Below are positions 1 to 22,166 of a stretch of DNA of 32,443 bases, in pieces. Position 1 is the stretch's first letter; each line of letters opens with the position of its first letter. The notes below the pieces were generated by a model, which had not been told where the DNA came from, did not search any database, and was given only the letters and a program-made list of their open reading frames with translations. This stretch comes from a bacterium UBA3734 (GTDB lineage Bacteria > Bacteroidota > Bacteroidia > Bacteroidales > Bacteroidaceae), in contig DFHC01000165.1 of the NCBI GenBank assembly GCA_002372575.1, positions 1 to 32,443 of the forward strand, in the 5' to 3' direction. The translations under genes were made by a program, and so were the position numbers.

Positions 1-245
1 TGGTCGGTGCCGGGCACCCAGCAGGCGTTCTTGCCCTCCATGCGGGCGCGTCGCACCAGAATGTCCTGAATCGTGTTGTTGAGCATGTGGCCCATGTGGA
101 GCACGCCCGTCACGTTGGGTGGCGGAATCACGATTGTGTAGGGTTCTCTGCCGTCGGGCTTCGAGCTGAACAGCTTGTTGTCAAGCCAATATTGATACCA
201 TTTCGATTCGACCGCCTGCGGGTCGTACTTGCTTGCTAATTCCAT
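1..245 (-). CDS. valS: Valine--tRNA ligase, N-terminal fragment
   Basis: Class I aminoacyl-tRNA synthetase that charges tRNA-Val in the cytoplasm. Only the first 81 codons lie in the window; the gene runs off the left edge. The reading frame opens with [20 protein letters not shown] and then shows the family signature [17 protein letters not shown], whose HMGH is the class I HIGH motif of the ATP site, followed by an I-x-D-I-L-V-R-R-x-R-M segment and the WVPGTD motif typical of ValS. The ATG at 243-245 is preceded by a good Bacteroidota promoter and follows a strong terminator, so it is transcribed independently of the genes to its right. IleS and LeuS are less likely because the PPPNVTG-LHMGH wording is characteristic of ValS. 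Confidence 0.93.
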
Positions 246-317: not shown

Positions 318-339
318 ACAACTCGCATATTCTTATACA

Positions 340-373
340 AAAAAATGCGAATTTTGAATAATTCGCATTTTTT
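340..373 (-). terminator. Rho-independent terminator, probably bidirectional
   Basis: The arms AAAAAATGCGAATT and AATTCGCATTTTTT (340-353 and 360-373) form a perfect 14-bp stem around a 6-base loop. Read on the minus strand it ends the transcript of the small peptide gene just upstream and isolates valS. A and T runs on both sides would let it work in either direction. Confidence 0.8.
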
Positions 374-380
374 ATTAGGC

Positions 381-599
381 TTAATCCCACACACTTCGGA
401 TTTCCATTCCGGCAATACGGTCGGGGCTTTCGCCCCACTGCGGCGCGAAGGCGGGGCCTGTTCCGCCGCCTCCATAGCCGACTCCCGTGCCGTCGCCGTT
501 GTCGTTCACGTTGGTGATGCTGCCTTCAGCAAGAAGATTTTCGATTTCGAGGCGACGAACGCGAACCGAAGGCTGAATATATTGTTTCTTTTCCATCAT
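381..599 (-). CDS. Small peptide, MxKKxYxQP family (first copy)
   Basis: A 71-72 residue protein of unknown function. It starts MEKKQYIQPSVRVRRLE, continues with an acidic stretch ending AEGS, then a Gly/Asn/Asp-rich middle, and ends RSVWD. There is no clear signal peptide or membrane segment. It is the downstream cistron of the large secreted protein at 664-4005, 64 bases after that stop and just before a strong terminator, so it is very likely expressed with it. A second peptide with the same pattern (KKYVQPTIKI...EGS...SIWAD) sits in the same place behind another secreted protein at 21993-22166. Two adjacent ATG codons (597-599 and 594-596) are possible starts. A GTG at 608 would add MKE but is less like the second copy. 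The resemblance of the two copies is visible; the role is not. An exported or modified peptide, or a partner of the secreted protein, are options. Confidence 0.7.
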   Translation of the reverse strand: MMEKKQYIQPSVRVRRLEIENLLAEGSITNVNDNGDGTGVGYGGGGTGPAFAPQWGESPDRIAGMEIRSVWD

Positions 600-663: not shown

Positions 664-3600
664 TTACTTGATTACTTTCTTTCCATTCTTGATATAGATT
701 CCCTTCTTCGCCGGCTCACCCTGCAAACGACGACCGTCAATCGAGTAATAACTATCGGTTGTCAATTCTCCACTGTCAACTGACGTGATGCTCGTGGTTT
801 CCCCATTGCCGAAATTCAGCACGATGTTCTTCGCTCCGTTTGCGGGCAGGTCGCCAGCCTTCAGGCCGTCTTTCAGTTGGAAATAGCCTCGGAACGCATT
901 CACGGGCACGTCCACGCTGGGATAGTAGAGCTTGCTGTCGCCGCCGAGATAGAGCACCGTGCGGTCTTGCGCCGCGAGGTTCACGGGCGAATAGCAGCCG
1001 ATGAAGTCAGTGCAGTCGGTGGCATCGGCGGTAACATCGCCAGAAAGAATCTCAACGCCGCTGAACACGGGATTCACGATATTCTCACCCGATGTCCATT
1101 TCACGAGATACGAGACTCCAGCCCAAACTGCGTCGGCATCCTCGAAATTCAACGTGAGCGTCTTGGTCGGGGCGTCGTAGCTCGACTCGCCCAGCCGTTT
1201 CACCGTTGCGCCTTCGAGCGGTGTGCCAGTGAAATCCTCTACGGCGAAAGGCAGGCAGAGCGTGTTCCAGCGACCGTCGCGGTAGAGCGTGCGGCCATAG
1301 ATGATGACGCTTTTTGTTTGTCCGGCATTCTCGTCGATGACATCGCTGTTGTCGCCATTGTCGCGGAAGACGATGGTGCTGGGATAGACCCAAGCATAGC
1401 TCACCGTCACCGTCACCGCCTCGGCAGGCATAACGAAGGTTGTAACAGAGCTGCTGCCGATATCAATGGCGCTCTGCACACCCACCTCGACCGTTTCGCC
1501 GCTGGCCGTCCGGCAGCTGATGCCTGTCACCTTGTAGCCGGAGGCCGCCGTTGGAGTGATTTGGATTTGCTTGCCTGCCGGAGCTTCGGTCAAGCTTTCA
1601 GAGAGGTATTGACCCGGCAGGGTGGCTCGTGCCGTGCCGCCATCTGCGGGGTCGTTCACGATGGTAATGGAATAGGTAAGTAAGGTGAACTTCGCATAGA
1701 TGCGGATGCTTTCCGTGATTTCCTGGTCGAAGTCAAATGGGGTTTCGAAGTCCGGGTCTGCATACCAGCCGCCAAAAGAGTAGCCGTCCTTGCTCGGATC
1801 GGGGGTGGGCCTTGCCACCTTTTCACCGCTGTTCACCGTGACATTGGAGAGAATCGTTTCGCCATCCTTGAAGGTTACGGTATGGGCGTTCTCCCCTTGC
1901 GGACGCCTGATAATGGTGACGGTGTATTCCGTTTCTTCAAAGTACCCATTTACATAGCTTGCCGTCAGGTGTACCATGTTGTCGCCCACGTCAAGTGCAA
2001 TCGTGCCTTCGACCCTGATAATCGCGTCCGAATAATTTGGATTGTATGTAAGTTGTAATGAGCCTGGCTTCCATTCGCTCTCAATGATTGTCAAACACGT
2101 AGCGTGTTCCGCTGCGAGACCAATCTCTTCCGTCTCGTAGGGTACGGTGATCGTGTAGGCAGTCACCTCGGGGTCAAACGCCGGCTCCAGCGTACCACCA
2201 TCTGCCGTAATCGACGCGAGCGTGCTTGCCACCGCTCCGATTTCAGCCGCCACCGTCACCGCCTGCGCGGGCATAGTGAAGACAAAACTGTTTCCGTTGA
2301 TCGTTACCGGAATATCGGTTCCGTCTGCACCCGTCACCGCAACGGATTTCAGGTATTCGTCGTTGCCCGGAATCCGCTCCAGCCGCCCCGTTATTTCTTC
2401 CCCTTCTGTCCCGGATGAGGGAACGTACACTGACGCATGTGCATTGCCCGTCTGCGTAAGCGTGATGGGATAGGTTACGGCAAAGCGCACGGTCACATTC
2501 ACCGTTTCTTCCGGCATGGTAAATGTATAGTTGGTTTTGGGGTTGTTAATAGAGGGATCCCATGGATTACCCGGATTAACGGGGACAATGACGGAACCGC
2601 CTGCATAATTTGAAAGGCTCAGTTCCACTCCGTTCGCGGTGACCGCCTTCACGGAGCTGATGCCATATCCTTCATTCGGCGTCACGGTAACCGTCACTTG
2701 ATCTCCTGCTGCGGCCTGCTGCGCTGCCTGCGGGGAGAGTTGCCCCTGCTTCCGCACCGAAATCGTCGCCGTGCCTCCCTCGACGGGCGTGATGGTGACG
2801 GTTATCGGAGGCGGGGAAAGCTTTACATATTTGTACGGTGAGCCAGAGCCGCCCAGAGGGTCGGTGCCGTTCCAGGCCGCAGCGCCGTCCGCCACAGCAT
2901 CGGTGTTCACCACCACAACGGGTTCGGGGTCGTAACCCGAAAGGTCGGGGTCTGTCCCCAACGCCCCCATGCTGCCCAGAGCCTCCAGCTCGCCACTGTT
3001 TACTTTGATACCACCCCGTGCAGAATACACACCATAGGCCCATCCTTCGGCAAAGAGACTGCCCTTAGCCACGGTAATGTCTTTATGCACATAGATGCCA
3101 TAGCTTCCTGCCGAAAAGTTGAAGTCGCCATCCAGAATCAGGCTGCCGGGCGCAACCTGAATGCCCATGTCAGTGGAAGCGTCTGCAAGGACCGCGCTGC
3201 CTTTGATCGTCAGGTCGATTCCCTCGGCAGTGATGAGGGAGCCCATAGTGCTGCCAGTTACGCCGGTGACGTTTTCCAGAGTCAGGGTGTTGGTGGCGGG
3301 GTCGAAGGATGCTTTCGCATTCTCCCCTGTGACGCCGGGAATGTCGTCCTTGTTGGTTTCATCCACTTGCGTACCACCTACCCAGAGGTCATATTGGGTG
3401 ACCTGCACAAACTTCGCCGTTAGGGTCACGTCGCCCGTAGGCGTAAAGGTATAGCTCGCCTGGTCGCTGACTTTGGTCTCGCCCTCATACCAGCCGTCGA
3501 AGCGGTAGCCGTCGTTGGGCGTGGCCGTCATGGTTTTCCGTTCACCCGAATAGCTCCATCCATAGCCATCGATTGTGCCACCATCGGCAGGCTCGCACGA

Positions 3601-4005
3601 TTGGGTAATCACATAAGTGGGCGCACCGCTGTAAATAGCCTTGATGTGTACATTGCGCTCAGGCATAATAAAATTGTACTCAAATGTAGTCGGACCGGAA
3701 AAAGAACTACTCACCACGGTAACAGGTATCCCTTCCACGAGGAGCATAAGTAGCTCCTCACTTCCACTTAGTCCAGTTGCACTCGGATCCTCGACAAGAA
3801 CCGTAATCTGCGTTCCTGGGTCGTAATAGCCGCCGGCGGAATTGGGAATAATTCTGAGATAACCTTTGTCCGACGGTTCCCGTTCGGTTGTGATTCGGTA
3901 TTGTCCTTCGAAAGGGTCAGGAGGAGAGGTTTGCCCCCACGCCGCAGCAGGCGCAAGCAGGGCGAGCATCAAGAGCGCGAAAGCGCGTTTCGTTTTGGTT
4001 TTCAT
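664..4005 (-). CDS. Large secreted multidomain protein with repeat domains and sorting-like tail
   Basis: A 1113-residue cell-surface or secreted protein of unknown function. An N-terminal signal peptide (MKTKTKRAFALLMLALLAP, cleavage near AWGQ) is followed by a divergent InlB B-repeat-like domain (about 125-200, GYRFDGWYEGE), a long beta-rich part with ITVTITPVEGGT-type repeats, a cadherin-like beta-sandwich (about 590-695, LEPAFDPEVTAYTITVP), a Listeria-Bacteroides repeat (about 705-775, GYSFGGWYADPDFETPFDF), another B-repeat, and a WNTLCLPF region near 913. The last 28 residues (YYSIDGRRLQGEPAKKGIYI...) resemble a type IX sorting tail. The ATG at 4003-4005 was chosen because the TTG at 4032 that opens the frame lies inside the -7 promoter element. 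The architecture suggests adhesion or glycan binding, which is inference. It is followed by a small peptide gene. Confidence 0.85.
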   Translation of the reverse strand: MKTKTKRAFALLMLALLAPAAAWGQTSPPDPFEGQYRITTEREPSDKGYLRIIPNSAGGYYDPGTQITVLVEDPSATGLSGSEELLMLLVEGIPVTVVSSSFSGPTTFEYNFIMPERNVHIKAIYSGAPTYVITQSCEPADGGTIDGYGWSYSGERKTMTATPNDGYRFDGWYEGETKVSDQASYTFTPTGDVTLTAKFVQVTQYDLWVGGTQVDETNKDDIPGVTGENAKASFDPATNTLTLENVTGVTGSTMGSLITAEGIDLTIKGSAVLADASTDMGIQVAPGSLILDGDFNFSAGSYGIYVHKDITVAKGSLFAEGWAYGVYSARGGIKVNSGELEALGSMGALGTDPDLSGYDPEPVVVVNTDAVADGAAAWNGTDPLGGSGSPYKYVKLSPPPITVTITPVEGGTATISVRKQGQLSPQAAQQAAAGDQVTVTVTPNEGYGISSVKAVTANGVELSLSNYAGGSVIVPVNPGNPWDPSINNPKTNYTFTMPEETVNVTVRFAVTYPITLTQTGNAHASVYVPSSGTEGEEITGRLERIPGNDEYLKSVAVTGADGTDIPVTINGNSFVFTMPAQAVTVAAEIGAVASTLASITADGGTLEPAFDPEVTAYTITVPYETEEIGLAAEHATCLTIIESEWKPGSLQLTYNPNYSDAIIRVEGTIALDVGDNMVHLTASYVNGYFEETEYTVTIIRRPQGENAHTVTFKDGETILSNVTVNSGEKVARPTPDPSKDGYSFGGWYADPDFETPFDFDQEITESIRIYAKFTLLTYSITIVNDPADGGTARATLPGQYLSESLTEAPAGKQIQITPTAASGYKVTGISCRTASGETVEVGVQSAIDIGSSSVTTFVMPAEAVTVTVSYAWVYPSTIVFRDNGDNSDVIDENAGQTKSVIIYGRTLYRDGRWNTLCLPFAVEDFTGTPLEGATVKRLGESSYDAPTKTLTLNFEDADAVWAGVSYLVKWTSGENIVNPVFSGVEILSGDVTADATDCTDFIGCYSPVNLAAQDRTVLYLGGDSKLYYPSVDVPVNAFRGYFQLKDGLKAGDLPANGAKNIVLNFGNGETTSITSVDSGELTTDSYYSIDGRRLQGEPAKKGIYIKNGKKVIK
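761..781 (-). repeat. Three 7-bp repeat units inside the coding region
   Basis: On the plus strand the units GTCAATT, CTCCACT and GTCAACT follow one another. Read on the coding strand they encode the linker SVDSGELTTDS just before the sorting-like tail. They belong to the same 7-mer class that fills the spacer at 8711-8780. Confidence 0.45.
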
Positions 4006-4155: not shown

Positions 4156-5538
4156 TCAATCGCCAATACCAGCGGCCTGTTTGTATTCAAGCAGTTTGAG
4201 TTGGTGCTCGGCATAGGCTTCGATGTGGCGATCAAGGGCCTGCTGATAGAGCAGTTGCGCCTCTAACAGGTCTGACATTCTTGACGTTCCGGCACGATAG
4301 AAATCGCGGTTCAGCCGTAGGTTCTCTTTGGCTTGTTCAATGCTGTGCTGCGCAATTTCCATCTGTTGGCGGCTTTCGCAGACGCTGTTCCAGGCGTTTT
4401 TCATGCGGATTCGCAGCAACTCTGACTTGTCTTGTTGTTCGTCGATGGCTTTCTGGTATTCGATTTTCCTGCGATTGATGGCGTGAGAGCCGCCCCACCA
4501 GTTGCTGATGGGAATGCTCACCGTGGCCATCACCATCGCAAACGTGCGGTTGTTCTTGAGCAGGTTATGGTAGTTGTAGCCCGCTCCCACAGCCACAGAT
4601 GGCAGGTTTTGTCCCACGGCCATCTTTTTCTGCAGTTTGGCAGCCTCCACTTGCTTGCCAAGGAGCTGGTATTCGGGGAGAAGCCTCACCCCCGCCACTT
4701 CTTCAGGAGGAGAGGGGAGCAAATGCTCTTGCTGGGCCGTGTCAGGTGCGATGATATCGAAGTCGTGGGCGATGCCTGTATATTGCCCCAGCAGCAACTT
4801 TACGATGTCGATGCCGTTTTGGAGTTTTATTTTTTGGCTTTGAATGTCGTTTTGCCGCAATTCCACTTGCAACTGGTCGTTTCGCAATGCGACTCCTGCT
4901 CGCACGGCCACGTCGGCATCCTTGTGCAGGTCGCCCAGCAGGGCCTCCACGGCCGCGAGCGTTTTCTGCTTCTCACGAAGCGACACCAGCTGCCAATAAT
5001 ATTCGCTCACGGTCTTCTCCACCTCATTTTCAGAGAGTTGCAGTTGCAACTGGGCAACTTCCTCGCCCACTTTCGCCAGACGGTTGCCATTGACAATCTG
5101 TCCGCCGGCAAACACGGGTTGCATGGCTGTCACCGAGGCGATGGTTCCGTTTTTCATCATTGTCATGCTCATCGGATTTGCCATTGCTGCCAGTGCCTCG
5201 GGCGGCAGTATCTGGGCGAGCGTAGCCCCCATTTCTGGCGAGATTAACGCCGAGGGGTCGATGTCCATTTTCGCCATGCCACGATTTGCGTTGAATGTCA
5301 CGCCCACAGCACTGACGTTTGGAAAATACTTGGTGAAGGCTTCGCGACGCTGTTCCTGTGCCACAGCCACGCCGGCTTGGGCCGAACGTATGGCAAAATT
5401 GTTTTGCAGGGCAGAATCGGTGAGCTGGCGGAGGGTGTAGGACTGTTGGGCCTTCATCGGTAAGAGGCTAAAAAGGCAGAAAAGTAAAATACTCATCACC
5501 TTTCTTTTTTGTCCATATTTTATTTTCATACAATCCAT
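4156..5538 (-). CDS. TolC-family outer membrane efflux channel
   Basis: Outer membrane component of a tripartite efflux system, forming the trimeric exit duct used by the RND pump encoded just upstream. The 460-residue length fits the family. A signal peptide (MSILLFCLFSLLPMKA, cut near QQ) precedes the typical TolC opening YTLRQLTDSALQNNFAIRSA. Two outer membrane efflux repeats follow, with long helical segments such as QLQLQLSENEVEKTVSEYYW and a C-terminal half ending in AEHQLKLLEYKQAAGIGD. ATG at 5538 is used; an in-frame ATG at 5529 would remove three residues. It is the last gene of the operon, 75 bases after the pump gene, and that spacer holds an array of 8-bp repeats that ends 5 bases before the start codon. 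Confidence 0.9.
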   Translation of the reverse strand: MDCMKIKYGQKRKVMSILLFCLFSLLPMKAQQSYTLRQLTDSALQNNFAIRSAQAGVAVAQEQRREAFTKYFPNVSAVGVTFNANRGMAKMDIDPSALISPEMGATLAQILPPEALAAMANPMSMTMMKNGTIASVTAMQPVFAGGQIVNGNRLAKVGEEVAQLQLQLSENEVEKTVSEYYWQLVSLREKQKTLAAVEALLGDLHKDADVAVRAGVALRNDQLQVELRQNDIQSQKIKLQNGIDIVKLLLGQYTGIAHDFDIIAPDTAQQEHLLPSPPEEVAGVRLLPEYQLLGKQVEAAKLQKKMAVGQNLPSVAVGAGYNYHNLLKNNRTFAMVMATVSIPISNWWGGSHAINRRKIEYQKAIDEQQDKSELLRIRMKNAWNSVCESRQQMEIAQHSIEQAKENLRLNRDFYRAGTSRMSDLLEAQLLYQQALDRHIEAYAEHQLKLLEYKQAAGIGD

Positions 5539-5543
5539 TTTAT

Positions 5544-5599
5544 CTTTTTAACTTTTTAACTTTTTAACTTTTTAACTCTTTAACTCTTTAACTCTTTAA
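5544..5599. repeat. Tandem array of seven 8-bp units in an operon spacer
   Basis: Four copies of CTTTTTAA are followed by three of CTCTTTAA, without interruption. On the transcribed strand this reads as TTAAAGAG then TTAAAAAG. The array fills most of the spacer between the pump and channel genes and reaches to within 5 bases of the channel ATG, in the ribosome-binding region. Confidence 0.9.
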
Positions 5600-5613
5600 T
5601 TTTCCAACCTTAA

Positions 5614-8600
5614 CTATCTTGTCAGTTTCCAATACGCCACGGGCAACACCGTGACAACGAGGATGAGCGCACCGATTCCACCTGCGAAGATGGTGACTCC
5701 GACAGGCATCCAGAACGACGATCCGGCGATAATCATCGGAATGACGCCCACGGCGGTGGTCATCGTGGTCAGGAAAATGGGAACCATTCGTCGCCGTCCG
5801 GCATCGTAGGCCGCCCGTCGCACCACTTCGTTTTCGCGCCTTCGGCTTGGTTCTTCGCCGTCAAGCAGGTTGTCGGCATGTTCATAAATGAGAATTTCGT
5901 TGCGCATAATCATACCCATCAGCGTGATGAGCCCGAAGATGCTGGTCAGACCAATCATTCGGTTCATCAGGCCGAGTCCGATGAGTGTTCCCGGAATCAT
6001 CAGTCCGAGGGCTGCCATACAGAGTGTGGTGATGCCGAAGCGTTTGAAGTTGAACAGCAGGAAGAAGAAAATGATAATCATTGCGATGGCGATACCGTTG
6101 ATAATCTGCGGCATGTTGTCGTCGTTGTATTCCAGTTCTCCGCCAATTTCAGCCCGAATGCCGTCGGGCAGTTTCAGGGCTTTTTGCATCTCTGCCAGCC
6201 GTGTTTCTACGGGTGCAGCGTAAGTGCCGCGACGGAACTCAGCCGTGACCGTCAGGCAGCGCTCACCCGAACGGTGCATAATGCGACTTTCGCTCCATTT
6301 CGGACTGACACGCGCCACTTGGCGTAGTGGAACGGAGAATTTTCCTCCCGTCCCGCTTTGCAGTGACGGCAGCATCGTGAGCGGCGAGGTGAGGCCGATG
6401 TCTTCGATGTCGGAAATGGTGAGCGAGGTGGTGTCGCGCACGACGATGGGCAATTCGTAGTCGCCTTCCCAAATGCTGCCCACTTGCAAGTCGCCCGTCG
6501 AGGCGGCTAAGGTCAGCGCCGCCGTTGTGCGATTGATGCCAAGTTGTGCCGATGCCACGGGGTCGAGCTCGACATTGATGAGCGGGAAGGGCTGTTGGAA
6601 ATCGCTGTGGACCCACTCCAGTTCGGGCATTTCGCGCATCTGCAGCATCATTTGTTCGGCGGCTGCGTGGAGCGAGTCGAGGTTCTCGCCGTAGAAACGG
6701 AATTCCAATTCTGGAACTTCCAGGAAATCAAGCCGTTTGAACTTTACGTATGCCTCGGGAAAGGCTTCCGACAGTTTGGGCTGGTAGTCGGCGAGCAGGT
6801 CGAGCGTGGCATTTGCCGACGTCGTATTGACGATGAACTGCGCAAAGTTTCGTCCTGCCATCTGCGGGGCGTAGGTTGTCTGGAAACGGGGCGACGCACA
6901 GCCCACAAACGTCGTGATGCTCGTGATTCGCTCGTCGTTTTCCATTGCATGGCGCACGCTGTCGGCCACGAGTCGCGTATCCTGCAGCCCCTTCCCCTCG
7001 GGCAGGAAAATCTCCACGGCAAACTGTCCGCGGTCGGCAAAGGGGAACAAACGTATTTTCAGCGTTGGCAGGATGAGCATTGATATCAAAATCGTCGCGA
7101 TGCACGCCCCGATGGTCATCCAGGGATGTTGGAAGGTCGTGCTCAAAATTTTGTCGTAGAACTTCTGGACGCGGTCGGTGAGTCGCTTTCCCTCGTTCTT
7201 TTTCTCGGGTACTCCGATAATTTTTACGCATAAAAAGGGAATCACGGTAACAGCCAATAGCAGCGATACCATCAGGTTGATGGTAATCGTCCACGGGAAG
7301 TCTTGAAGGGCATCGAGAAATGCGCCTCTGAACGTGATGAGAAAGGGGTAGAAAATGGCACAGATGCAGATGGTGGCGAGCATCATCGGCATAAAATACT
7401 GTGCCACCGACTTCACTGCGGCTTCCTTTGGCGGCAATCCCTTCCCTGCGTACTCCAAATAGCCGTCGATGACCACGATGGAATTATCGACAATCATGCC
7501 GAGCACCACGATGAGGCCGGCCAGCGTGACAATGTTCAGCGGGATGTTGGCGAAATACATGATGGCCACGGAAATAAACGTGCTCAGCGGGATGGTGATG
7601 GCTGCCACGATGGCCGAGCGCAGCGGGAAGAGCACCATCATGACAAGAATGATGACCGCCATCGACAGCAAAAGGTCGCGCAGGAAATCGCGGATGCTGT
7701 CGCCGACAACTTTCGGCTGGTCGGCAATGCGCGTAAGGGTGACGTCGTCGGGCAGTTCTTCGGCGCGGAAATCGTCGAGCACATTGTCCACGTCGCGCCC
7801 GTAGGCCATAATGTTGTTGCCCTGCGTCATTTCGAGCGAAAGCAGCACGCAGGGGTGACCATTTTGCTCAATATAGCTCTGTGATGTGTCGTATTCGCGC
7901 TCTATGCGGGCGATGTCGCGGATGCGCACGACTTTGCCTGTGAGCGGGTCGCTGTAGATGATTTGGTTGCCCACCTCCTCCATGCTGTTTTGTGTGGGTT
8001 CGATGTGGATGAGTGACTGTTGGTGGTCGTTGGTGAGTTGTCCGGCCATCGTGGTGAGTCCTTGCGACTGGAGCGAGGCCATCAGCGTTTGCTGTCCGAT
8101 GCCATAGGCTTCCAGCCGCTGGCGGTCAATGTAGAGGCTCACTTGCTCTTTGTGGTCGCCGTAGAGTCGCACGTTGGCCACCGACGGAATCTTGCGCAGG
8201 CGGTCGGAAAGGCGGTCGCTGTAGTCCTGCAACTCGCGATAGCTGCGCTCCTTGCTTTCCACGGCGATGAGCAGGGCCGACGTGTTGCCGAAATCGTCGT
8301 TAGCCACGAGTGCCAGTACGCCGCCTGGCAGGCTCTGCTTATAGAGTGCCAGCCCGTGCTTGATTTTGCTCCAGACTTCGTCCTTGTTGTTCACCTCGTC
8401 GTTCAGGTGCACCAGCACCATCGCCATTCCGTTTTGTGAGGTAGATGTCGTTTTTTTGCGGTTTACCTCGCCATACGTAAAGAGGTAACGCTCGAGCGGA
8501 CGCGTCACTTGCTGCTCCACCTCTTCGCTCGTGGCACCCGGATAAACGGCCACCACGACGCCTTGTCGGATGGTGAAGGGTGGAAATTCGTCTTTCGGCA

Positions 8601-8703
8601 TCACCCACATTCCGTAGATGCCAATGCCAAACAGAATGGCGATGAACAGCAGCGTGATTCTATAGTTGTCGAGTGGCCAACTGATCCATTTCGTTTTCTT
8701 CAT
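5614..8703 (-). CDS. RND-family efflux pump, inner membrane subunit (AcrB-like)
   Basis: Proton-driven inner membrane transporter that works with the adaptor and channel encoded beside it; the substrate cannot be told from sequence. The protein is 1029 residues, normal for the family. It starts with MKKTKWISWPLDNYRITLLF, a first transmembrane helix and the large periplasmic loop (GATSEEVEQQVTRPLE). A second half repeats the layout from about residue 500. Transmembrane segment 4 reads LGMIVDNSIVVIDGYL: the first of the two AcrB proton-relay aspartates is kept (D406) and the second is Asn (N407). The ATG at 8703 is preferred; the frame can be extended to a TTG at 8712. The gene lies between adaptor and channel, with repeat arrays in both spacers. 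Confidence 0.93.
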   Translation of the reverse strand: MKKTKWISWPLDNYRITLLFIAILFGIGIYGMWVMPKDEFPPFTIRQGVVVAVYPGATSEEVEQQVTRPLERYLFTYGEVNRKKTTSTSQNGMAMVLVHLNDEVNNKDEVWSKIKHGLALYKQSLPGGVLALVANDDFGNTSALLIAVESKERSYRELQDYSDRLSDRLRKIPSVANVRLYGDHKEQVSLYIDRQRLEAYGIGQQTLMASLQSQGLTTMAGQLTNDHQQSLIHIEPTQNSMEEVGNQIIYSDPLTGKVVRIRDIARIEREYDTSQSYIEQNGHPCVLLSLEMTQGNNIMAYGRDVDNVLDDFRAEELPDDVTLTRIADQPKVVGDSIRDFLRDLLLSMAVIILVMMVLFPLRSAIVAAITIPLSTFISVAIMYFANIPLNIVTLAGLIVVLGMIVDNSIVVIDGYLEYAGKGLPPKEAAVKSVAQYFMPMMLATICICAIFYPFLITFRGAFLDALQDFPWTITINLMVSLLLAVTVIPFLCVKIIGVPEKKNEGKRLTDRVQKFYDKILSTTFQHPWMTIGACIATILISMLILPTLKIRLFPFADRGQFAVEIFLPEGKGLQDTRLVADSVRHAMENDERITSITTFVGCASPRFQTTYAPQMAGRNFAQFIVNTTSANATLDLLADYQPKLSEAFPEAYVKFKRLDFLEVPELEFRFYGENLDSLHAAAEQMMLQMREMPELEWVHSDFQQPFPLINVELDPVASAQLGINRTTAALTLAASTGDLQVGSIWEGDYELPIVVRDTTSLTISDIEDIGLTSPLTMLPSLQSGTGGKFSVPLRQVARVSPKWSESRIMHRSGERCLTVTAEFRRGTYAAPVETRLAEMQKALKLPDGIRAEIGGELEYNDDNMPQIINGIAIAMIIIFFFLLFNFKRFGITTLCMAALGLMIPGTLIGLGLMNRMIGLTSIFGLITLMGMIMRNEILIYEHADNLLDGEEPSRRRENEVVRRAAYDAGRRRMVPIFLTTMTTAVGVIPMIIAGSSFWMPVGVTIFAGGIGALILVVTVLPVAYWKLTR

Positions 8704-8710
8704 TGTTTTC

Positions 8711-8780
8711 AATCATTATCAATCATCAACTGTCAGTTGTAAATTCTAAATCGTAAATCGTAAATTGTAAATTGTAAATC
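8711..8780. repeat. Array of ten degenerate 7-bp units filling an operon spacer
   Basis: In the plus direction the units are AATCATT, ATCAATC, ATCAACT, GTCAGTT, GTAAATT, CTAAATC, GTAAATC, GTAAATT, GTAAATT and GTAAATC. They run without a break through the spacer between adaptor and pump genes, and the last one overlaps the adaptor stop codon. The common form is roughly G-T-(A/C)-A-A-T-(T/C). Within it CAACTGTCAGTTG (8727-8739) is a palindrome. Confidence 0.8.
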
Positions 8781-9804
8781 AAAACACCACCCTTGTTCCC
8801 TCGCTGAGTTTCTGGAAACCCTCTGTGACAACACGTTCGCCAGCGGTGATGCCGTCGGTGATGCGAATGCGATTGCCCTGCGACGACCCTACGGTGACAG
8901 TCGTGCGATGGGCTGTTTTCTGATTATCGACGGTCCACACGAACAACGACCCGTCAGGACGACGTTGCACGGAAGTGATGGGCAGATAGAATCCTCCTCC
9001 TTCACCTTTCGACGTATGAATTTGTGAGAGAGTGACGTTTGCCACCATTCCGGGCAGCAGCTTCCGATCGGGGTTAGCCACGTGGATGTGAATATCGTAG
9101 GTGTGCGTGAGCGCGTCGGCCTGCACTCCTTTTTCAATTCTGCCGCCGCTCACCTTCTTGCCAGCCGCTTCGACCTCAATCATCGACGAGGTGTGGGGCG
9201 TGATGGCGTTCATCTCGGCCTCGGGCACTGCCACGCGCACTCTCACACGCGACACGTCGAGAATTGTCACGACTGCCTGCGAGGGTAGGGCAGTTTCGCC
9301 AGCCTTCACTTGCTGCCTTCCGACGACACCGCTTACGGGGGCCACCAGTCGGCAATCGTTCAGATTCTTGCGTGCCACGGACAGTTGTGACTTCGCCTGC
9401 GCCACTTTACTCTGAATTTCCACCCACTGGGCTTCGGGTAGCGAGCCGGCGTCGTGCAGCATTCCATAGCGTTTCAGAGCGTCGTCGGCCTGCGCCATTT
9501 GCGCCTCGGCTCCGCTGAGCAGGTTTCGCGCTTGCGTGTCGTCCATCACGGCCAAAAGTTGCCCTTTGCCGACAGCCTGTCCCTCGCTCACGAGCACGCG
9601 CTTCACAACGCCCATTCCCGTGAAACTCACTGCCGTGGCCTCGTTTTCCTCAACCACGCCCACATAGCTTTGTCCCGACACATTGCCACTGTTCACCGCC
9701 ACCTCCGTTTTCACCCGGATGGGAGCCTTCGCCTTCTGTTCTTTTTTCTCTCCGCAGCTGCCGGCCAAAAGTATCGCCAGCAGTGCAATCACACATTTTT
9801 TCAT
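8779..9804 (-). CDS. Efflux membrane fusion protein (HlyD/AcrA-like adaptor lipoprotein)
   Basis: Periplasmic adaptor that links the RND pump to the TolC-like channel. The 341-residue protein opens with a lipoprotein-type signal (MKKCVIALLAILLAGSC, Cys17). It then shows a biotinyl-lipoyl-like half (ALSFTGMGVVKRVLVSEGQ-like wording: AVSFTGMGVVKRVLVSEGQ, VGKGQLLAVMD), an alpha-helical hairpin (about 85-145), the return lipoyl half (DCRLVAPVSGVVGRQQVKAG) and beta-barrel and membrane-proximal domains ending KLSEGTRVVF. It is the first gene of the efflux operon, with a -7 promoter element just upstream. The operon is divergent from the AraC-type regulator at 9981, its most likely local controller. 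Confidence 0.92.
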   Translation of the reverse strand: MKKCVIALLAILLAGSCGEKKEQKAKAPIRVKTEVAVNSGNVSGQSYVGVVEENEATAVSFTGMGVVKRVLVSEGQAVGKGQLLAVMDDTQARNLLSGAEAQMAQADDALKRYGMLHDAGSLPEAQWVEIQSKVAQAKSQLSVARKNLNDCRLVAPVSGVVGRQQVKAGETALPSQAVVTILDVSRVRVRVAVPEAEMNAITPHTSSMIEVEAAGKKVSGGRIEKGVQADALTHTYDIHIHVANPDRKLLPGMVANVTLSQIHTSKGEGGGFYLPITSVQRRPDGSLFVWTVDNQKTAHRTTVTVGSSQGNRIRITDGITAGERVVTEGFQKLSEGTRVVF

Positions 9805-16631: not shown

Positions 16632-19307
16632 TCACAGTTTGTTCGCAACTTTCACGAGCTGCTCGCCGAGGCCGATGGTGTAGCCTTGCGAGCAGAACAC
16701 GACGCGATTGAACGTGTCGGCGATGATGAAAACGGGTAGCTGACCGCCATTTTGCAGTTTCATCTGCGCAGCAATTTGCTGACGAATCGTGCCGTCCTTG
16801 TCGATGCCATAGACGATGTTTTCTGGCAGTGCACCGAAATTCTCCTGTTGATATTTCGCTGCGTCGGCCTCGCTCTCGAAGAGCAGCACGAAGGGACGGC
16901 CCCACTTGTCGAGGTCGTTTTTCACCTTCGCAATGTCGCGCATCGCGTGGTTCGTCGGTTCCTGACCCACGCCGAGGATTCCCACAACAAAATAGCCGCG
17001 ACCTGTCTGCGAAAGAATGCTCACGGGGTCGCTGTCGGCCAATTTTCCACCGTCGGTCAGCAGGAATTTCGACTCCGAGTCAAACGAGCCAATGACGCTG
17101 ATTTCCGTGTCGCTCTGGCGCAGTTGCAGCGGAAGCGTTGTCGTCTTGCCTTCGGCAATGCTGAACAGTTGGTTGCTGGCCAAAACACTACCGCTGGCGA
17201 GGCGCGTGCCCGTCGTCAGCATATAGGTGCCGACATCGAGTTGCGCACCTTTTTTGAAGGTGTTGGTCCAACTCGTTCCGCCACCCATATCCACTTGTCC
17301 TTCCTCAAAATTCATGAGTTGCGTGGTGCCGTCGTCGAGGATGCGCGTCACGCTGAAATGGCTGTAATATTTCGGGTCGTCGAGCGTTTTCGTGGGTTCG
17401 TAGGTGAGTTGCAGTGTGCCCGTCGGAGCCGTTTTCTGCTCGGCAACGTCGAAATCCACATCTATCCAATGAGCTTCCCCTTTCTGGTGGAGGTTGGAGG
17501 AGGCTTTATATTGCACCTTCCCCGTCACCACGTCTTTTCGCGCCTCGATGCCTAACGAGCGAGCCAAATCGACGAAGAAAATGTCGCGCGAGCGCGTGTC
17601 GGTGAGGCGACTACGCCACACGCCGACGGGCGTCTGTGCGATGCGGAGCGATTTCTGGTCGGGGTTCAGCCGGACGTTTTCCTTCACCCACGCCACGAGT
17701 TTCGACGGGTCTTTTTGCAGGTTTTCGGGCTGCAGCTCCGTTTTTCCAGTGTTTTCCGCCATCCAAGCCTTCTCGAGGAACTGCTTGAAGGGCGTGATAA
17801 TCATTTCGTTTTCAACGCGTGGAGAAAGTTGGTCGGAAGTGGCGTTGTAGCTGTCTTCGAGGATGTCGAGCGGCATATCGCGCAGGTCTTTGTCGCTCAG
17901 CGAGGCAAGCAGGTCGAGCGAGCGACGGTCGGCAGCGTGGCGGTTCAGAAAACTGAGAATCGTCTGCCAATTTCCACGTGATTTCGCAAGAAAATTCGCC
18001 CCCTCGGGACTTAGCGACCGCGCCTCGTCTTCGCTCAGGAACGTCGCTTCGTATGCCTTGCGCAGCGAGTCTTCGTAGGCGAAGCGCTGCTTGTTTTGCG
18101 CCGCCATTTCTGCGCTCACCTCGGGCATCACCACCTGCTCGGCGGGCGGGACGATGTCGATTTCGACCGCTTTTCCACGCGCCACGGCCTGTCGGTTATG
18201 GTTCGTGAGCCGAATCGTAATCGTCTTGTCCTTGCCAAACGAGGCCTTTGCCCAGCCATACCAGCCGTTTTTCGAGGCCCATACGAGCATGTCGCCCTTG
18301 CCGGCAGTGAGGAACGTGCGGCCTTTTTCGTCGGCATATTTCGTTACGGCGCTGTAAAATTCGGCATAGTTGTAGATTTTGAAATCCACGCGTGCGCCGC
18401 CGACGGGCTTCCCCTTGCGATCGACGATGCGGAAATCTACGCGCCCCGTAGAGCCGTAGTTGTCGATGAGGTTGATTTCCGTGAAATTATTGGTGCGCAA
18501 CATCACTTCCTCGGGGCCGTTGTAGTCGCCAAAGGCTCGCGTGTGCATCAGCAGGGCGCGCGAGGCCGGCGCGTTGAACCACCCGAGATTCAGCACGGGC
18601 TCGGGCTCGCAGGCTCCCATGAAATACCACTCGCCGTCGGCCCAGGCCTCCACCCAGGCGTGGTTGTCGTCGGTGTGGGCCCAGCGCGGCGTATAGACCT
18701 GTCGCGCAGGAATACCGATGCTGCGCAGGGCGGCCACGGTGAAGGTCGATTCCTCGCCACAGCGTCCGATGGCCGTCTTCACGCAGGCCAGGGGCGAAAG
18801 CGTGCGCCCGTCGCTCGGTTGATAGGTCACGCGCTCGTGGCACCAGTGGTTCACTTCCAAAATCGCCTCCTTCATCGACATCCCGCGCACGCGTTCCTTT
18901 AATTCCTTGAAAAAAACGATGCGCGAGAGGTCGAGATTCTCGTTGTTCACGCGCAGCGGCAGCACGAAATGGCGGAAGAGCAGGTCAGGCACCCTTTTCC
19001 CCCATTCCATCGACTCGCGAGCCTGCATCGTTGTGCGCACGTTGGCGAGGTGGAAGGCCGTGGAGTAGTCGGTGATGTCGGCCACGGGCATGTAGGCGTA
19101 AAGGAATTTTAGCGCCTCGGTTTCCTCGACAGAGGTGTTGAGGCCGTCGGTCTGGAAGAATTGCTGGCCTACGAGCGCTATTTTCTCGTGGAAATCGCGT
19201 TCAACCTTTGTCCGCAGGTCGCCGTCGGCGATGAAATGGCACTGTGCCCATGTCGTGAGGGCAATACATTGCACGAAGCAAAGAAAAGTGAAAAATTTTC
19301 TCATCAT
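16632..19307 (-). CDS. Secreted transglutaminase-like protein with thioredoxin-like tail
   Basis: An 891-residue exported protein. A signal peptide (MMRKFFTFLCFVQCIALTTW) is followed by a transglutaminase-like core: KTAIGRCGEESTFTVAALRS holds the catalytic Cys183 and DDNHAWVEAW the catalytic His216, with acidic residues shortly after for the third position. A beta-sandwich region (DFRIVDRKGKPVGGARVDFK) follows. The C-terminus (PFVLLFESEADAAKYQQENF ... LPVFIIADTFNRVVFCSQGY) looks like a thioredoxin-like fold without a CxxC motif. The natural activity may be peptidase-like rather than crosslinking, as in many bacterial members. It has its own consensus promoter and is transcribed alone. ATG 19307 or the adjacent ATG 19304 is the start. 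Confidence 0.85.
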   Translation of the reverse strand: MMRKFFTFLCFVQCIALTTWAQCHFIADGDLRTKVERDFHEKIALVGQQFFQTDGLNTSVEETEALKFLYAYMPVADITDYSTAFHLANVRTTMQARESMEWGKRVPDLLFRHFVLPLRVNNENLDLSRIVFFKELKERVRGMSMKEAILEVNHWCHERVTYQPSDGRTLSPLACVKTAIGRCGEESTFTVAALRSIGIPARQVYTPRWAHTDDNHAWVEAWADGEWYFMGACEPEPVLNLGWFNAPASRALLMHTRAFGDYNGPEEVMLRTNNFTEINLIDNYGSTGRVDFRIVDRKGKPVGGARVDFKIYNYAEFYSAVTKYADEKGRTFLTAGKGDMLVWASKNGWYGWAKASFGKDKTITIRLTNHNRQAVARGKAVEIDIVPPAEQVVMPEVSAEMAAQNKQRFAYEDSLRKAYEATFLSEDEARSLSPEGANFLAKSRGNWQTILSFLNRHAADRRSLDLLASLSDKDLRDMPLDILEDSYNATSDQLSPRVENEMIITPFKQFLEKAWMAENTGKTELQPENLQKDPSKLVAWVKENVRLNPDQKSLRIAQTPVGVWRSRLTDTRSRDIFFVDLARSLGIEARKDVVTGKVQYKASSNLHQKGEAHWIDVDFDVAEQKTAPTGTLQLTYEPTKTLDDPKYYSHFSVTRILDDGTTQLMNFEEGQVDMGGGTSWTNTFKKGAQLDVGTYMLTTGTRLASGSVLASNQLFSIAEGKTTTLPLQLRQSDTEISVIGSFDSESKFLLTDGGKLADSDPVSILSQTGRGYFVVGILGVGQEPTNHAMRDIAKVKNDLDKWGRPFVLLFESEADAAKYQQENFGALPENIVYGIDKDGTIRQQIAAQMKLQNGGQLPVFIIADTFNRVVFCSQGYTIGLGEQLVKVANKL

Positions 19308-19502: not shown

Positions 19503-21980
19503 ATGAAAAAGATTGAATTACTCTTGATTTCATTGCTGCTGTCCGCGGTGGCTATGGCCACTGACTACACGGGCATTCAGTTGACATTTAAACGTACGGG
19601 AACTGACGTAGAGGTGACCGTGAAAGACTGGGAAGGAAACGTCATTCCAAAAGTGAGAGCTTCACTGGAAAGAACCTCTTTCGGAACGCTAATGTCGAGT
19701 GGTGAAGATGCAATTACTAACGGTTCTGTTCTTGCTCCAGCCTTTAGCAGTAGTTATGGAAACGTAGCAGACTCCGAAATTACCTATACTTTTAAGGTAG
19801 AGGGGTTAGACGACTCCTATGCTTTCGATAAAGCTGATATTGACGTGTATGCGATGAATAAGGATGGTGGAGCACAAGGTAACGGTGGCAACACTAAGCG
19901 ATACTTCCATTTTTTTGTGAAGACGGGAGCAGACGGAACTAATTTTGCGAACTTTGCCTCGCACGCGTTCGACACGGACATTTGTACAGTTCCCAGCAAA
20001 GACGGAGGGCTTTACCACAGTGTTCAGCATCTGTCGTCGGGTACCCTTCCGCAACCTCCTTCGAGTAGTTATTATATTCAAGTTACATTGAAGAAAAAAA
20101 GTTCTGACGGCTGCTACGCTGGTATCGGTTCCGTCAGGCTCTACTCGGGCAATGAAAAGAAGTTTTACACGATACGTCGCTTCACGACTTTGAATTCCTA
20201 TATTTATCAGGACGGCAACACAATGAGCACGGGAACCCTCAGTAATGAAAACATGTCGTGGTGGGTCTTTGAATCGACGGGAACACCCAATCGTTACTAC
20301 ATCAAAAATGCTGCGACGGGCCAATACATTCAAACTTCGTATAATATAGCCCCAAATGATGCTGTTTCTATGGGAGATACGCCCGTTGAATTTGAGGTGA
20401 AGAAAGATTTTAATAATGGAAAAAATACGAATGGATACTATTATATTGCCAGTACCGACCAAACAATATCCACGGAATCAACATCAGATACAAAAGGCTT
20501 GAATTGGAGTTCTTCGTTCAACAAGGTCGTTACGTGGTATATCAGGAGCGGAACGAATGGTAATTCTTATTGGGAAATCATTCGCGACCTCAACCGCTAT
20601 TCACCAACAGAAGCCATAGGAAGAACCCAAGACCAGTTGCAAATGTATTCCATCCCTTGCGGTGAAAAGGGAAGTGCCTATATTTCGGCGGCTGATTTCG
20701 TGGGCGAGGATGTCCTCAAGGAATTACATTTCTGCGCAACAGCCATGCCTGTTCGTCACGATTCGTTATATACCCATCAGAAGGCTGACGTGAAGCAAGG
20801 TGGCACATTGCCCGTGAACATCACCATTGATAATTCCAACTCTAATGTTCATGCTTTCGCTTATACCGATTGGGATAAGGATGGCGTTTTTGACGATCGG
20901 CAAGAGTTTTCGGGAAATGCCGTCAGCCTTTTAGCAGATGCTGAAATCGGACAATATCGCGTGCGCATTCGCGTGATAGAAGGTGAAGCCGATGCAGAAT
21001 ATCAGGCAAAGGGCTTTAGCTACGATTTCCTGGTCAATGTAGTCGATGCAAACACTGAAATAGAGTGGAGTGTAGAAGTGAGTAGTCCGTCTCGTGGAGT
21101 TGCTACGGGAACTGTTGTGGAAGAGGGTGGCGAGAAGAAACTTATAGCCACTGTGAAAACCATCGGCGATGCTGAATTCAAAGGCTGGAAATTGATGCAC
21201 AACTATTATCAGGGCGAAATGCTTTCAAGCGAAGCAGAATTAAGTGCGGATGACAATTATGAAATCCAACTTCCCCTTACGCAAAGTATTCGCCTCGTAG
21301 CTGTCATCGAACCCAATACGAAGGTCACTGAAACCGTGACGGCTGCCACCTATTCAACGATGTATTACAGTAATGTGGCACTGAGGGTTCCTGAAAATGT
21401 GCAGGCGAGGACGTATAAAGTTGCAGATGGAACTTTGTCTGTAAGTAAAACCTACGAACCTGGTGATATTATCCCTGCTGGAGAACCTGTTGCCCTCTAC
21501 GACAATAGACAAGAAGTGAATACGTATGACTTCTTCATTGCGACAACAACAAATACCCCCGATCCCGACAACATGCTGCTCGGCTTTGATGAAGCCAAGA
21601 CTACTGTCGGCCCGAATGGTGAAACTACGGGCTATGTGTTCTATAAATTCTCGTTTAAGGGACGTGATGCTAACGGACATCCCGCAAACGTCGGCTTCTA
21701 TCATGGCGCGACAGGCGGCAAAGCATTTACAAGCGCTGCACACAAGGCCTATCTCGCTGTACCACAGGGTGCGATGGGAAGTGAGGCCAAGAGTTTCTTC
21801 TCTATGCCAGATAATGGCGGGACAACAGACATCGAATCCATAGACATAACGGATGCCGACGGATCTGTATATTCCCTGCAAGGCATCAAAATCATGACTG
21901 CCAGCGAGTTTGCCAACAATCGGACAAAGCTACCAAAGGGTGTCTATATCATCAACCAGAAAAAGAAAATCATCAAATAA
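19503..21980 (+). CDS. Secreted lectin-like protein with GEVED-like domain and sorting-like tail
   Basis: An 825-residue secreted or surface protein. A signal peptide (MKKIELLLISLLLSAVAMA) leads into a beta-rich region, then a part resembling a ricin-type or related beta-trefoil (about 218-385, RYYIKNAATGQYIQTS). A GEVED-like segment follows near 450-520 (AYTDWDKDGVFDDRQEF, then GQYRVRIRVIEGEAD). The end (VYSLQGIKIM ... LPKGVYIINQKKKIIK) resembles the type IX sorting tail and matches the tail of the protein at 664-4005. It is followed 12 bases later by a small peptide gene and then a sulfatase, which suggests binding or processing of sulfated glycans; that link is inference from gene order. 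Confidence 0.82.
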   Translation: MKKIELLLISLLLSAVAMATDYTGIQLTFKRTGTDVEVTVKDWEGNVIPKVRASLERTSFGTLMSSGEDAITNGSVLAPAFSSSYGNVADSEITYTFKVEGLDDSYAFDKADIDVYAMNKDGGAQGNGGNTKRYFHFFVKTGADGTNFANFASHAFDTDICTVPSKDGGLYHSVQHLSSGTLPQPPSSSYYIQVTLKKKSSDGCYAGIGSVRLYSGNEKKFYTIRRFTTLNSYIYQDGNTMSTGTLSNENMSWWVFESTGTPNRYYIKNAATGQYIQTSYNIAPNDAVSMGDTPVEFEVKKDFNNGKNTNGYYYIASTDQTISTESTSDTKGLNWSSSFNKVVTWYIRSGTNGNSYWEIIRDLNRYSPTEAIGRTQDQLQMYSIPCGEKGSAYISAADFVGEDVLKELHFCATAMPVRHDSLYTHQKADVKQGGTLPVNITIDNSNSNVHAFAYTDWDKDGVFDDRQEFSGNAVSLLADAEIGQYRVRIRVIEGEADAEYQAKGFSYDFLVNVVDANTEIEWSVEVSSPSRGVATGTVVEEGGEKKLIATVKTIGDAEFKGWKLMHNYYQGEMLSSEAELSADDNYEIQLPLTQSIRLVAVIEPNTKVTETVTAATYSTMYYSNVALRVPENVQARTYKVADGTLSVSKTYEPGDIIPAGEPVALYDNRQEVNTYDFFIATTTNTPDPDNMLLGFDEAKTTVGPNGETTGYVFYKFSFKGRDANGHPANVGFYHGATGGKAFTSAAHKAYLAVPQGAMGSEAKSFFSMPDNGGTTDIESIDITDADGSVYSLQGIKIMTASEFANNRTKLPKGVYIINQKKKIIK

Positions 21981-21992
21981 AAAGTTCCAATT

Positions 21993-22166
21993 ATGAAAAA
22001 ATACGTTCAACCAACCATCAAAATACTTTCATTACCCGAGGTGATGCAGCAAATCTATGAAGGCTCAACCCCTGAACCTCAGTTGGCTAAACCCCATACG
22101 GATGACGCAGACACAGACGTTGATGAAGGATGGGAGATAGGCTATGAAAGCATTTGGGCAGACTAA
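21993..22166 (+). CDS. Small peptide, MxKKxYxQP family (second copy)
   Basis: A 57-residue protein of unknown function. It starts MKKYVQPTIKILSLPEVM, continues QQIYEGST, has an acidic middle rich in Asp, and ends YESIWAD. There is no signal peptide or membrane helix of the usual kind. It shares with the peptide at 381-599 the KK-x(0-1)-Y-(I/V)-QP-(S/T) start, the EGS at about residue 24 and an S-(I/V)-W end. It lies 12 bases after the secreted protein gene and 36 bases before the sulfatase gene, so the three are almost certainly one transcript. The reading frame is supported by the shared pattern and by position rather than by any known domain. Confidence 0.72.
   Translation: MKKYVQPTIKILSLPEVMQQIYEGSTPEPQLAKPHTDDADTDVDEGWEIGYESIWAD

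Follow-up and report, generated by a model that had tools for sequence, protein, structure and literature searches.

What is encoded by two small genes that begin alike and that each lie directly behind the gene of a large exported protein, on opposite strands of the 32,443-nucleotide stretch of bacterial DNA analyzed here (the window)? Our analysis indicates that their products are probably ribosomal precursors of a RiPP system of Bacteroidota that resembles the linear polyphosphorylated peptides (LPPs), and that such precursor genes are scattered, each apparently co-transcribed with the gene of a surface protein.

Precursor-like peptide 1 (381..599, minus strand) has 72 amino acids and reads MMEKKQYIQPSV...LLAEGSITN...RSVWD*, with YIQP at residues 7-10 and the serine of LLAEGS, Ser27, at Tyr+20. 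Precursor-like peptide 2 (21993..22166, plus strand) has 57 amino acids and reads MKKYVQPTIK...IYEGSTPE...ESIWAD*, with YVQP at residues 4-7 and Ser25 of its YEGS at Tyr+21. The two are similar solely at the start and in the short block: 24 residues align at 38% identity (9 identical), with an E-value of 8e-5 for this single comparison. No Pfam or NCBIfam model matches either peptide, even at E 10, and a plasmid search with peptide 2 gave no match. Directly 3' of the peptide 1 stop, our own scan places a terminator-like hairpin followed by a T run (339..370, minus strand), a feature that is missing from the output of a separate consensus scan.

Because the window pair shares just nine identical residues in 24, the pair could be read as two spurious small open reading frames that resemble each other by chance. 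Look-ups by identity found close relatives only (2 and 24 clusters), and a first scan of genome contigs found none, so profiles were required to reach the wider family. A profile built from the window pair gave weak, consistent matches in 36 of 100 genomes (own genome included). We also used a 25-sequence profile built on the first 30 residues of the peptides, from which weak, unrelated or incomplete rows were left out (L010, L012, L013, L028 and a few others). At E<=1e-3, this profile finds homologues in 71 of the 151 genomes of the bacterial family, in 17 of 30 genera, and phylum-wide in only 4 of 296 genomes (own genome included in each count); of 15 near-complete congeneric genomes, 14 are positive at E<=1. 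A profile search of a large protein database retrieved 232 clusters at E<=1e-3, and the 120 of these that were listed are all free of Pfam domains; where a name is given, it is 'hypothetical protein'. The existence of this family, whose members are strictly placed relative to surface genes, already refutes the chance explanation, which we consider to have next to no probability. The observation of the sequence-only reading, which had paired the peptides by features such as their common start and EGS block and had asked for just such a profile search, is confirmed, and the two turn out to be members of a large family.

The layout of that family can be described from 126 unique peptides (the 2 of the window plus 83 and 43 from fetched loci, minus two repeats). 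They follow the pattern KK-x-Y-x-x-P-x-(I/V)-x-V-V-x-L-x5-L-L-A-G-S and then a variable part with a median of 32 residues and a net charge of -6, net negative in 98% of the peptides. YxxP is present in 126 of 126, a conservation that is partly selection because the peptides were found via this motif. A serine is present at Tyr+17..22 in 117 of the 126, the first one in this interval mostly at +20 (67) or +19 (34) and at +18 in 7. The S-(I/V)-W ending that had been read from the window pair holds for that pair but not family-wide, where a tryptophan lies within the last 12 residues in 82 of 126 peptides. By eye, the peptides show no signal peptide. At the codon level, 14 of 18 peptide pairs have a dN/dS under 1; two pairs, closely related and with few changes, exceed 1, which leaves the codon evidence mixed in these two, and two have no dS. 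None of the outcomes that the sequence-only reading had named as refuting it (a lack of homologues, of association with secreted proteins or of codon-level conservation) was observed. Some of the genes stand in tandem. Locus L110 (G044:C25:51000-64000) holds two tandem units of tail protein plus peptide, with nearly identical peptides, and L091 (G024:C1:337000-349000) holds tandem repeats of a peptide and a lipobox gene, with three peptide matches about 1.8 kb apart.

In the window, each peptide is the next cistron behind an exported protein with a sorting-like tail, as the sequence-only reading had described. Partner 1 (664..4005, minus strand) has 1113 amino acids, InlB-like repeats and a T9SS-type-A-like tail (667..816, minus strand; YYSIDGRRLQ..KKGIYIKNGKKVIK), and its C-terminal end reads ...YYSIDGRRLQGEPAKKGIYIKNGKKVIK. 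Partner 2 (19503..21980, plus strand) has 825 amino acids and a tail of the same kind (21831..21977, plus strand), with the C-terminal end ...VYSLQGIKI...LPKGVYIINQKKKIIK. The gaps between partner and peptide are 64 nt for peptide 1 and 12 nt for peptide 2. In a scan of the two window partners with the T9SS type A sorting model TIGR04183, partner 2 scores 17.5 bits, under the cut-off of 23, and partner 1 gives no match. The tails of the partners resemble the sorting domain of T9SS type A cargo, whereas the peptides themselves have no such tail and the two window tails are under the cut-off or unmatched. The minus-strand sequence that encodes the tail of partner 1 contains a promoter-like match (10 of 12 positions, E. 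coli-type consensus; 779-751), so peptide 1 might own a separate promoter.

Several other features of the window adjoin these pairs. Between partner 1 and peptide 1 lies a perfect palindrome, CCCTCTCCGAAGGGAGAGGG, at 630-649; it has a single copy in the window, allowing up to 3 mismatches, and resembles intergenic elements of the repeat type. The strand that carries partner 1 also carries, immediately upstream of it, genes for an OEP, an RND permease and an HlyD-type adaptor that form a multidrug-efflux-like operon (4156-9804). A transglutaminase-like protein of 891 amino acids (16632-19307) adjoins partner 2 on the opposite strand, and a sulfatase gene (22203-23762) follows peptide 2 on the same strand after 36 nt.

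The association with tail proteins extends beyond the window. In the own genome, all four copies at E<=1e-3 lie directly behind a T9SS-like tail match; a fifth candidate, on contig C78, was picked up by a DNA pattern alone, escapes the profile and lacks an upstream tail. We examined 84 peptides in 80 loci around matches in 13 genomes, neighborhoods that we chose among the profile matches, leaving out some weak same-genus matches. By a looser text rule, 46 of the 84 lie behind a tail protein, including that of L065, which lies 428 nt behind a tail protein and also precedes a lipobox protein. Among the other 38, 26 precede a lipobox protein by rule and one more does so by eye (L071). A second set of 40 loci, chosen among the best matches, draws chiefly on 12 further genera of the family, with two loci from a genome of another order. 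Its 43 peptides comprise 21 behind a tail, 12 before a lipobox protein and 10 others, some of them at contig ends or with divergent tails, although for one of these ten, on the own contig C13 (L162), the coordinates place a tail match directly upstream. As background, among 1107 genes of other loci 2 follow a tail gene and 74 precede a lipobox protein, a control that is rough because these loci surround a housekeeping gene. Outside the own genome, then, about half of the peptides follow tail proteins and about three in ten just precede a lipobox protein.

These counts bear out the expectation that the peptides sit behind tail proteins more often than other genes do, but they do not do so in every genome. 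Counting the peptides that lie at most 700 bp downstream of a same-strand tail gives 16 of 24 in genome G055 and 8 of 11 in G012, yet 1 of 13 in G003 and 0 of 8 in G046. Genome G010 has 9 peptide matches at E<=1, several of them weak, and no tail match at E<=0.1. With lipobox neighbors also common, we rejected a partnership restricted to T9SS cargo: the tail proteins that had been taken for the neighbor kind are one of two common classes, and the second, the lipobox proteins, had been missed.

The tail (class A) partners are varied in content. When 45 of the 46 were scanned for domains (L065 was left out of the alignment), BspA-type leucine-rich repeats were found in 9 of the 45, along with InlB-like repeats, C10 and M60 peptidases and carbohydrate-binding modules. 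Of the lipobox (class B) partners, which would be surface-exposed, 5 of 27 match the fimbrillin-like family Mfa_like_1, and most match nothing at E<=1e-3. In L137 and L014, for instance, the protein ahead of the peptide has a tail that looks permuted (..NGKIVIVKNGVKYSANGQ..K) and may represent a further variant of the sorting tail. We also considered whether in G012 a cassette of tail plus peptide hops between unrelated cargo; this was rejected, as the paralogues align across the cargo too, which shows that whole genes were duplicated together with the peptide.

The gene order suggests that peptide and surface protein share a transcript. Where at most 300 nt separate a class A partner from its peptide (40 pairs), the median distance is 19 nt. 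No terminator lies between cargo and peptide in these pairs, and 9 lie past the peptide, compared to 11 in 800 shuffles. The peptide is thus apparently co-transcribed with the gene of its surface protein.

The YxxP start resembles a motif bound by RREs, and we therefore looked for an RRE. A PqqD domain (PF05402) is found in 14 of 16 genomes; of the two without it, one has no peptide match and the other has one at E 0.46. Elsewhere a PqqD-type RRE is found in 70 of 80 and in 66 of 70 genomes, with G024 counted again in the latter. At the 14 PqqD loci, an HprK-like kinase is present in 12, a SipW-like peptidase in 13 and both in 12, and 10 of the 14 lie near a sigma factor gene (recognized by its sequence start, with sigma-70 domains confirmed in one). 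From 550 additional loci we took the best 80, and 75 of these have RRE, kinase and peptidase together, in a count over all open reading frames. These 80 come from Prevotella, Hoylesella, Segatella, Leyella and uncultured Prevotellaceae, the named ones mainly from rumen, oral and gut samples. In the own genome the PqqD gene (contig C163, L173) stands alone, and neither a kinase nor a peptidase gene turned up in the stretches read of this assembly, which is 58.5% complete. Between sigma factor and kinase there is also a gene for a small exported-looking protein of about 150 amino acids (..YGFAASFNDSTVYFTDIQ..), at 9072-9524 of L163 and with counterparts in L164-L176; the L163 copy has no Pfam or NCBIfam assignment over the cut-off.

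Conservation of key residues makes the cassette look active. In the RRE, Asn35 is kept in 103 of 105 sequences and Asp74 in 105 of 105. By our own alignment, these would correspond to Asn33 and Asp70 of LppB, which hold the proline and tyrosine of the leader according to the available passages of PMC13381572. The Ser, His and Asp of the peptidase are each kept in 99 of 99 sequences and the Walker A lysine of the kinase in 96 of 96; these counts are not de-duplicated, and three loci occur twice. Kinase and peptidase score under the curated cut-offs of known families, and similarity of the kinase and the PqqD protein to HprK-related kinase A (TIGR04352) and SynChlorMet (ScmC/ScmD) is weak and far under the cut-offs. 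The AlphaFold model of the kinase (pLDDT 94.8) has PEP carboxykinase and HPr kinase as its best PDB matches. That of the peptidase (pLDDT 79) points weakly to the LexA/signal-peptidase superfamily, S24/S26-like, with nothing at E<=1e-3.

These three genes match members of the gene set of the LPPs, which are known from the lpp cluster of Paenibacillus alginolyticus (Nat Commun 2026, PMC13381572). As described in the available passages of that paper, the LPP genes encode a discrete RRE, an HprK-like kinase, a SipW-like Ser-His-Asp leader peptidase, an NTP transferase and an MsbA-like transporter. LPP precursors have a required YxxP, a variable C-terminus and a phosphorylated Ser3 in a core that begins A-Q-S. 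The peptides described here share the YxxP N-terminus, the variable C-terminus, a serine near the proposed start of the core (A-G-S resembling A-Q-S) and, in relatives, the discrete RRE, the HprK-like kinase and the SipW-like peptidase, joined in some loci by an NTP transferase or an ABC transporter. The differences are that LPPs are described as restricted to Bacillota, with a biological role that is unknown, whereas our peptides are from Bacteroidota; that LPP precursors number 1-3 per cluster, whereas ours are scattered and many per genome; and that the neighbors are capsule loci for LPPs and T9SS-tail or lipobox genes here. In addition, the LPP leader motif VLxHQxIxFET is absent here and replaced by the consensus YxxPx(I/V)xVVxLxxxxxLL, and the Tyr-Ser spacing is mostly 19-20 instead of 18. 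The word 'bacteroid' is absent from the main text of PMC13381572 as available, and the available passages of a survey of Bacteroidales RiPP clusters (PMC10352776) contain neither YxxP nor T9SS. Matched on gene set and layout, there is a good probability that the window-type system works like that of the LPPs.

By resemblance to the LPP core A1-Q2-S3, we place the putative split of leader and core at LL|A-G-S. In peptide 1 the proposed leader would be residues 1-24 (528..599, minus strand) and the proposed core, with EGS first, 384..527 (minus strand), in keeping with the family serine at Tyr+17..22. By the same analogy, peptide 2 would have a leader of residues 1-22 (21993..22058, plus strand) and a core that again starts with EGS (22059..22163, plus strand). 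A double-glycine (C39) leader, which has hydrophobic -7 and -12 positions, was also considered for LLAGS; inspection by eye spoke against it, as these positions are not hydrophobic here.

Several loci link peptide and cassette genes, which are given here in the direction of transcription except where noted, with SpI for the SipW-like, signal-peptidase-like protein. In L261, an apparent operon runs peptide, NTP transferase, HprK-like kinase, SpI, PqqD and ABC, with 294 nt between the first two; these are the genes of the LPP set. A tail protein and a peptide are followed by NTP transferase, SpI and PqqD in L260 and by NTP transferase and SpI in L262. In L258 and L259, tail protein and peptide face a cluster of kinase, SpI, PqqD and ABC genes on the opposite strand; the genomes of these two loci belong to a single genus and share the peptide, and both enter the linkage count. 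L257 has PqqD, a fused HprK/SpI gene, a peptide and a lipobox protein. The order is peptide, lipobox protein, PqqD and NTP transferase in L264, from another order, and peptide, lipobox protein and PqqD beside an SpI-ABC fusion in L172. In a named relative (L177), a tail protein and a peptide precede a sigma factor, HprK, SpI, one further gene and PqqD, and the RRE of this locus is the closest to the window's (88%) among the named loci of the best 80 of 550. Because L258/L259 and L260/L262 are same-genus pairs, these represent about seven independent arrangements. The fusions of peptidase with ABC transporter (L172, 5462-7498) and of kinase with peptidase (L257, 8163-9422) support a single pathway.

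Under uniform placement, 0.34 peptides would be expected within 3 kb of PqqD and 4 were observed; within 10 kb, 5 were observed and 1.1 expected. Most peptides have no enzyme gene nearby, and only 1 of the best 80 of 550 cassette loci has a peptide match within about 10 kb. The NTP transferase (PF14907, by Pfam) lies beside the peptide in L260, L261 and L262 and near it in L264; the best 80 of 550 loci gave no NTP transferase match. ABC transporter domains are found by Pfam in L165, L172 (fused), L258, L259, L261 and L263 and by text pattern in L168 and L265. In the best 80 of 550 loci, the text pattern finds no ABC gene close to the cassette. Co-occurrence of PqqD and peptide looks perfect in 16 genomes and is weak in 148 (65/3/69/11, p 0.09), because PqqD is nearly universal in the bacterial family. 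This table holds 68 of the 71 peptide-positive genomes (the 71 include the own genome), and 3 of these have no PqqD match.

Which pathway, and to what end, can be weighed against other explanations. One is that these are lasso peptide precursors. Like paeninodin and other lasso systems, ours combines a YxxP (in lasso peptides YxxP/WxxP) leader with a discrete PqqD-type RRE (lasso B1) and an HprK-like tailoring kinase. Among NCBIfam models, lasso chaperones match the PqqD protein best, though under the cut-off, and in a search of the PDB with the RRE profile LppB (9x8z, E 0.046) ranks behind two lasso RREs with bound leaders, 6jx3 (E 2e-7) and 9x90 (E 0.008). However, the lasso-type B2 peptidase (PF13471) exceeds its cut-off in just 1 of 16 genomes (3 of 16 at E<=0.01), and it is an LPP-type, SipW-like peptidase that adjoins the RRE instead. 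Lasso membership was rejected on this count, and we regard it as very improbable. A proposal outside RiPPs altogether is that the peptides are cytoplasmic acidic microproteins that act as dedicated export helpers or regulators of the adjoining exported protein, much as small acidic type III secretion chaperones serve their effectors. This would suit small, acidic products that show no signal peptide by eye and adjoin exported cargo, but it leaves unexplained both the conserved LL-A-G-S site and the peptides that head or flank clusters of NTP transferase, kinase, peptidase, RRE and ABC genes, and the cargo domains are very diverse. We consider it distinctly unlikely.

The strongest competitor accepts that the peptides are RiPP precursors but holds that the product is free and diffusible, bacteriocin-like or a signal, so that sharing an operon with a surface protein would mean co-regulation and no partnership. 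RiPPs are often diffusible, and the leader/core layout with its variable acidic core fits such a product. What speaks against it is the one-to-one pairing with tail or lipobox genes, which recurs in 12 other genera and in one genome of another order, and the joint duplication of cargo and peptide in G012. The repetition of the pairing across genera and this joint duplication favor a partner-tied function, and we judge a diffusible product unlikely, though less so than a microprotein. Of the two roles that the sequence-only reading had offered, that of precursor peptide is well supported by the YxxP leader, the RRE/kinase/SipW-like cassette and the peptides in or beside LPP-type clusters, and that of small partner of the secreted protein holds at the level of gene association and no further.

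Taken together, these observations lead us to prefer an LPP-like model for the scattered precursors. The small gene would be transcribed with a surface protein, either behind a T9SS-tail protein or before a lipobox protein, part of which are fimbrillin-like. The leader KKxYxxPx(I/V) would dock on the discrete PqqD-type RRE, as its motif and the conserved RRE residues suggest. By analogy to the LPPs, the HprK-like kinase would then phosphorylate the conserved serine in the (A)-G-S start of the core, and the SipW-like Ser-His-Asp peptidase would cut near LL|AGS. The acidic core would be exported, in genomes that have an MsbA-like ABC transporter by this protein, and could act at the cell surface together with the co-encoded protein; this last step, in which the product works with its surface-protein neighbor, is the least certain. 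One or a few shared cassettes would serve many scattered precursors. More tentatively, the system may be a genome-wide, surface-directed one of the Prevotella type, in which a few cassettes serve up to about two dozen precursors per genome, each for one T9SS cargo or surface lipoprotein, with the phosphopeptide as prosthetic ligand, assembly factor or tag.

Among the literature matches listed, with subscription papers and some preprints outside their scope, no title or start of an abstract reports such peptides. The family adds an overlooked set of small genes in Prevotella-like bacteria (up to 24 matches per genome at E<=1), and the proposed model would tie the maturation of RiPPs to cargo of type IX secretion and to surface lipoproteins. 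As LPPs have been published as a Bacillota-only class (PMC13381572, available passages), a Bacteroidota branch that is paired with surface proteins would offer a testable clue to the role of the phosphopeptide. In Prevotella-like bacteria, many surface proteins may thus each have a modified peptide made specifically for them.
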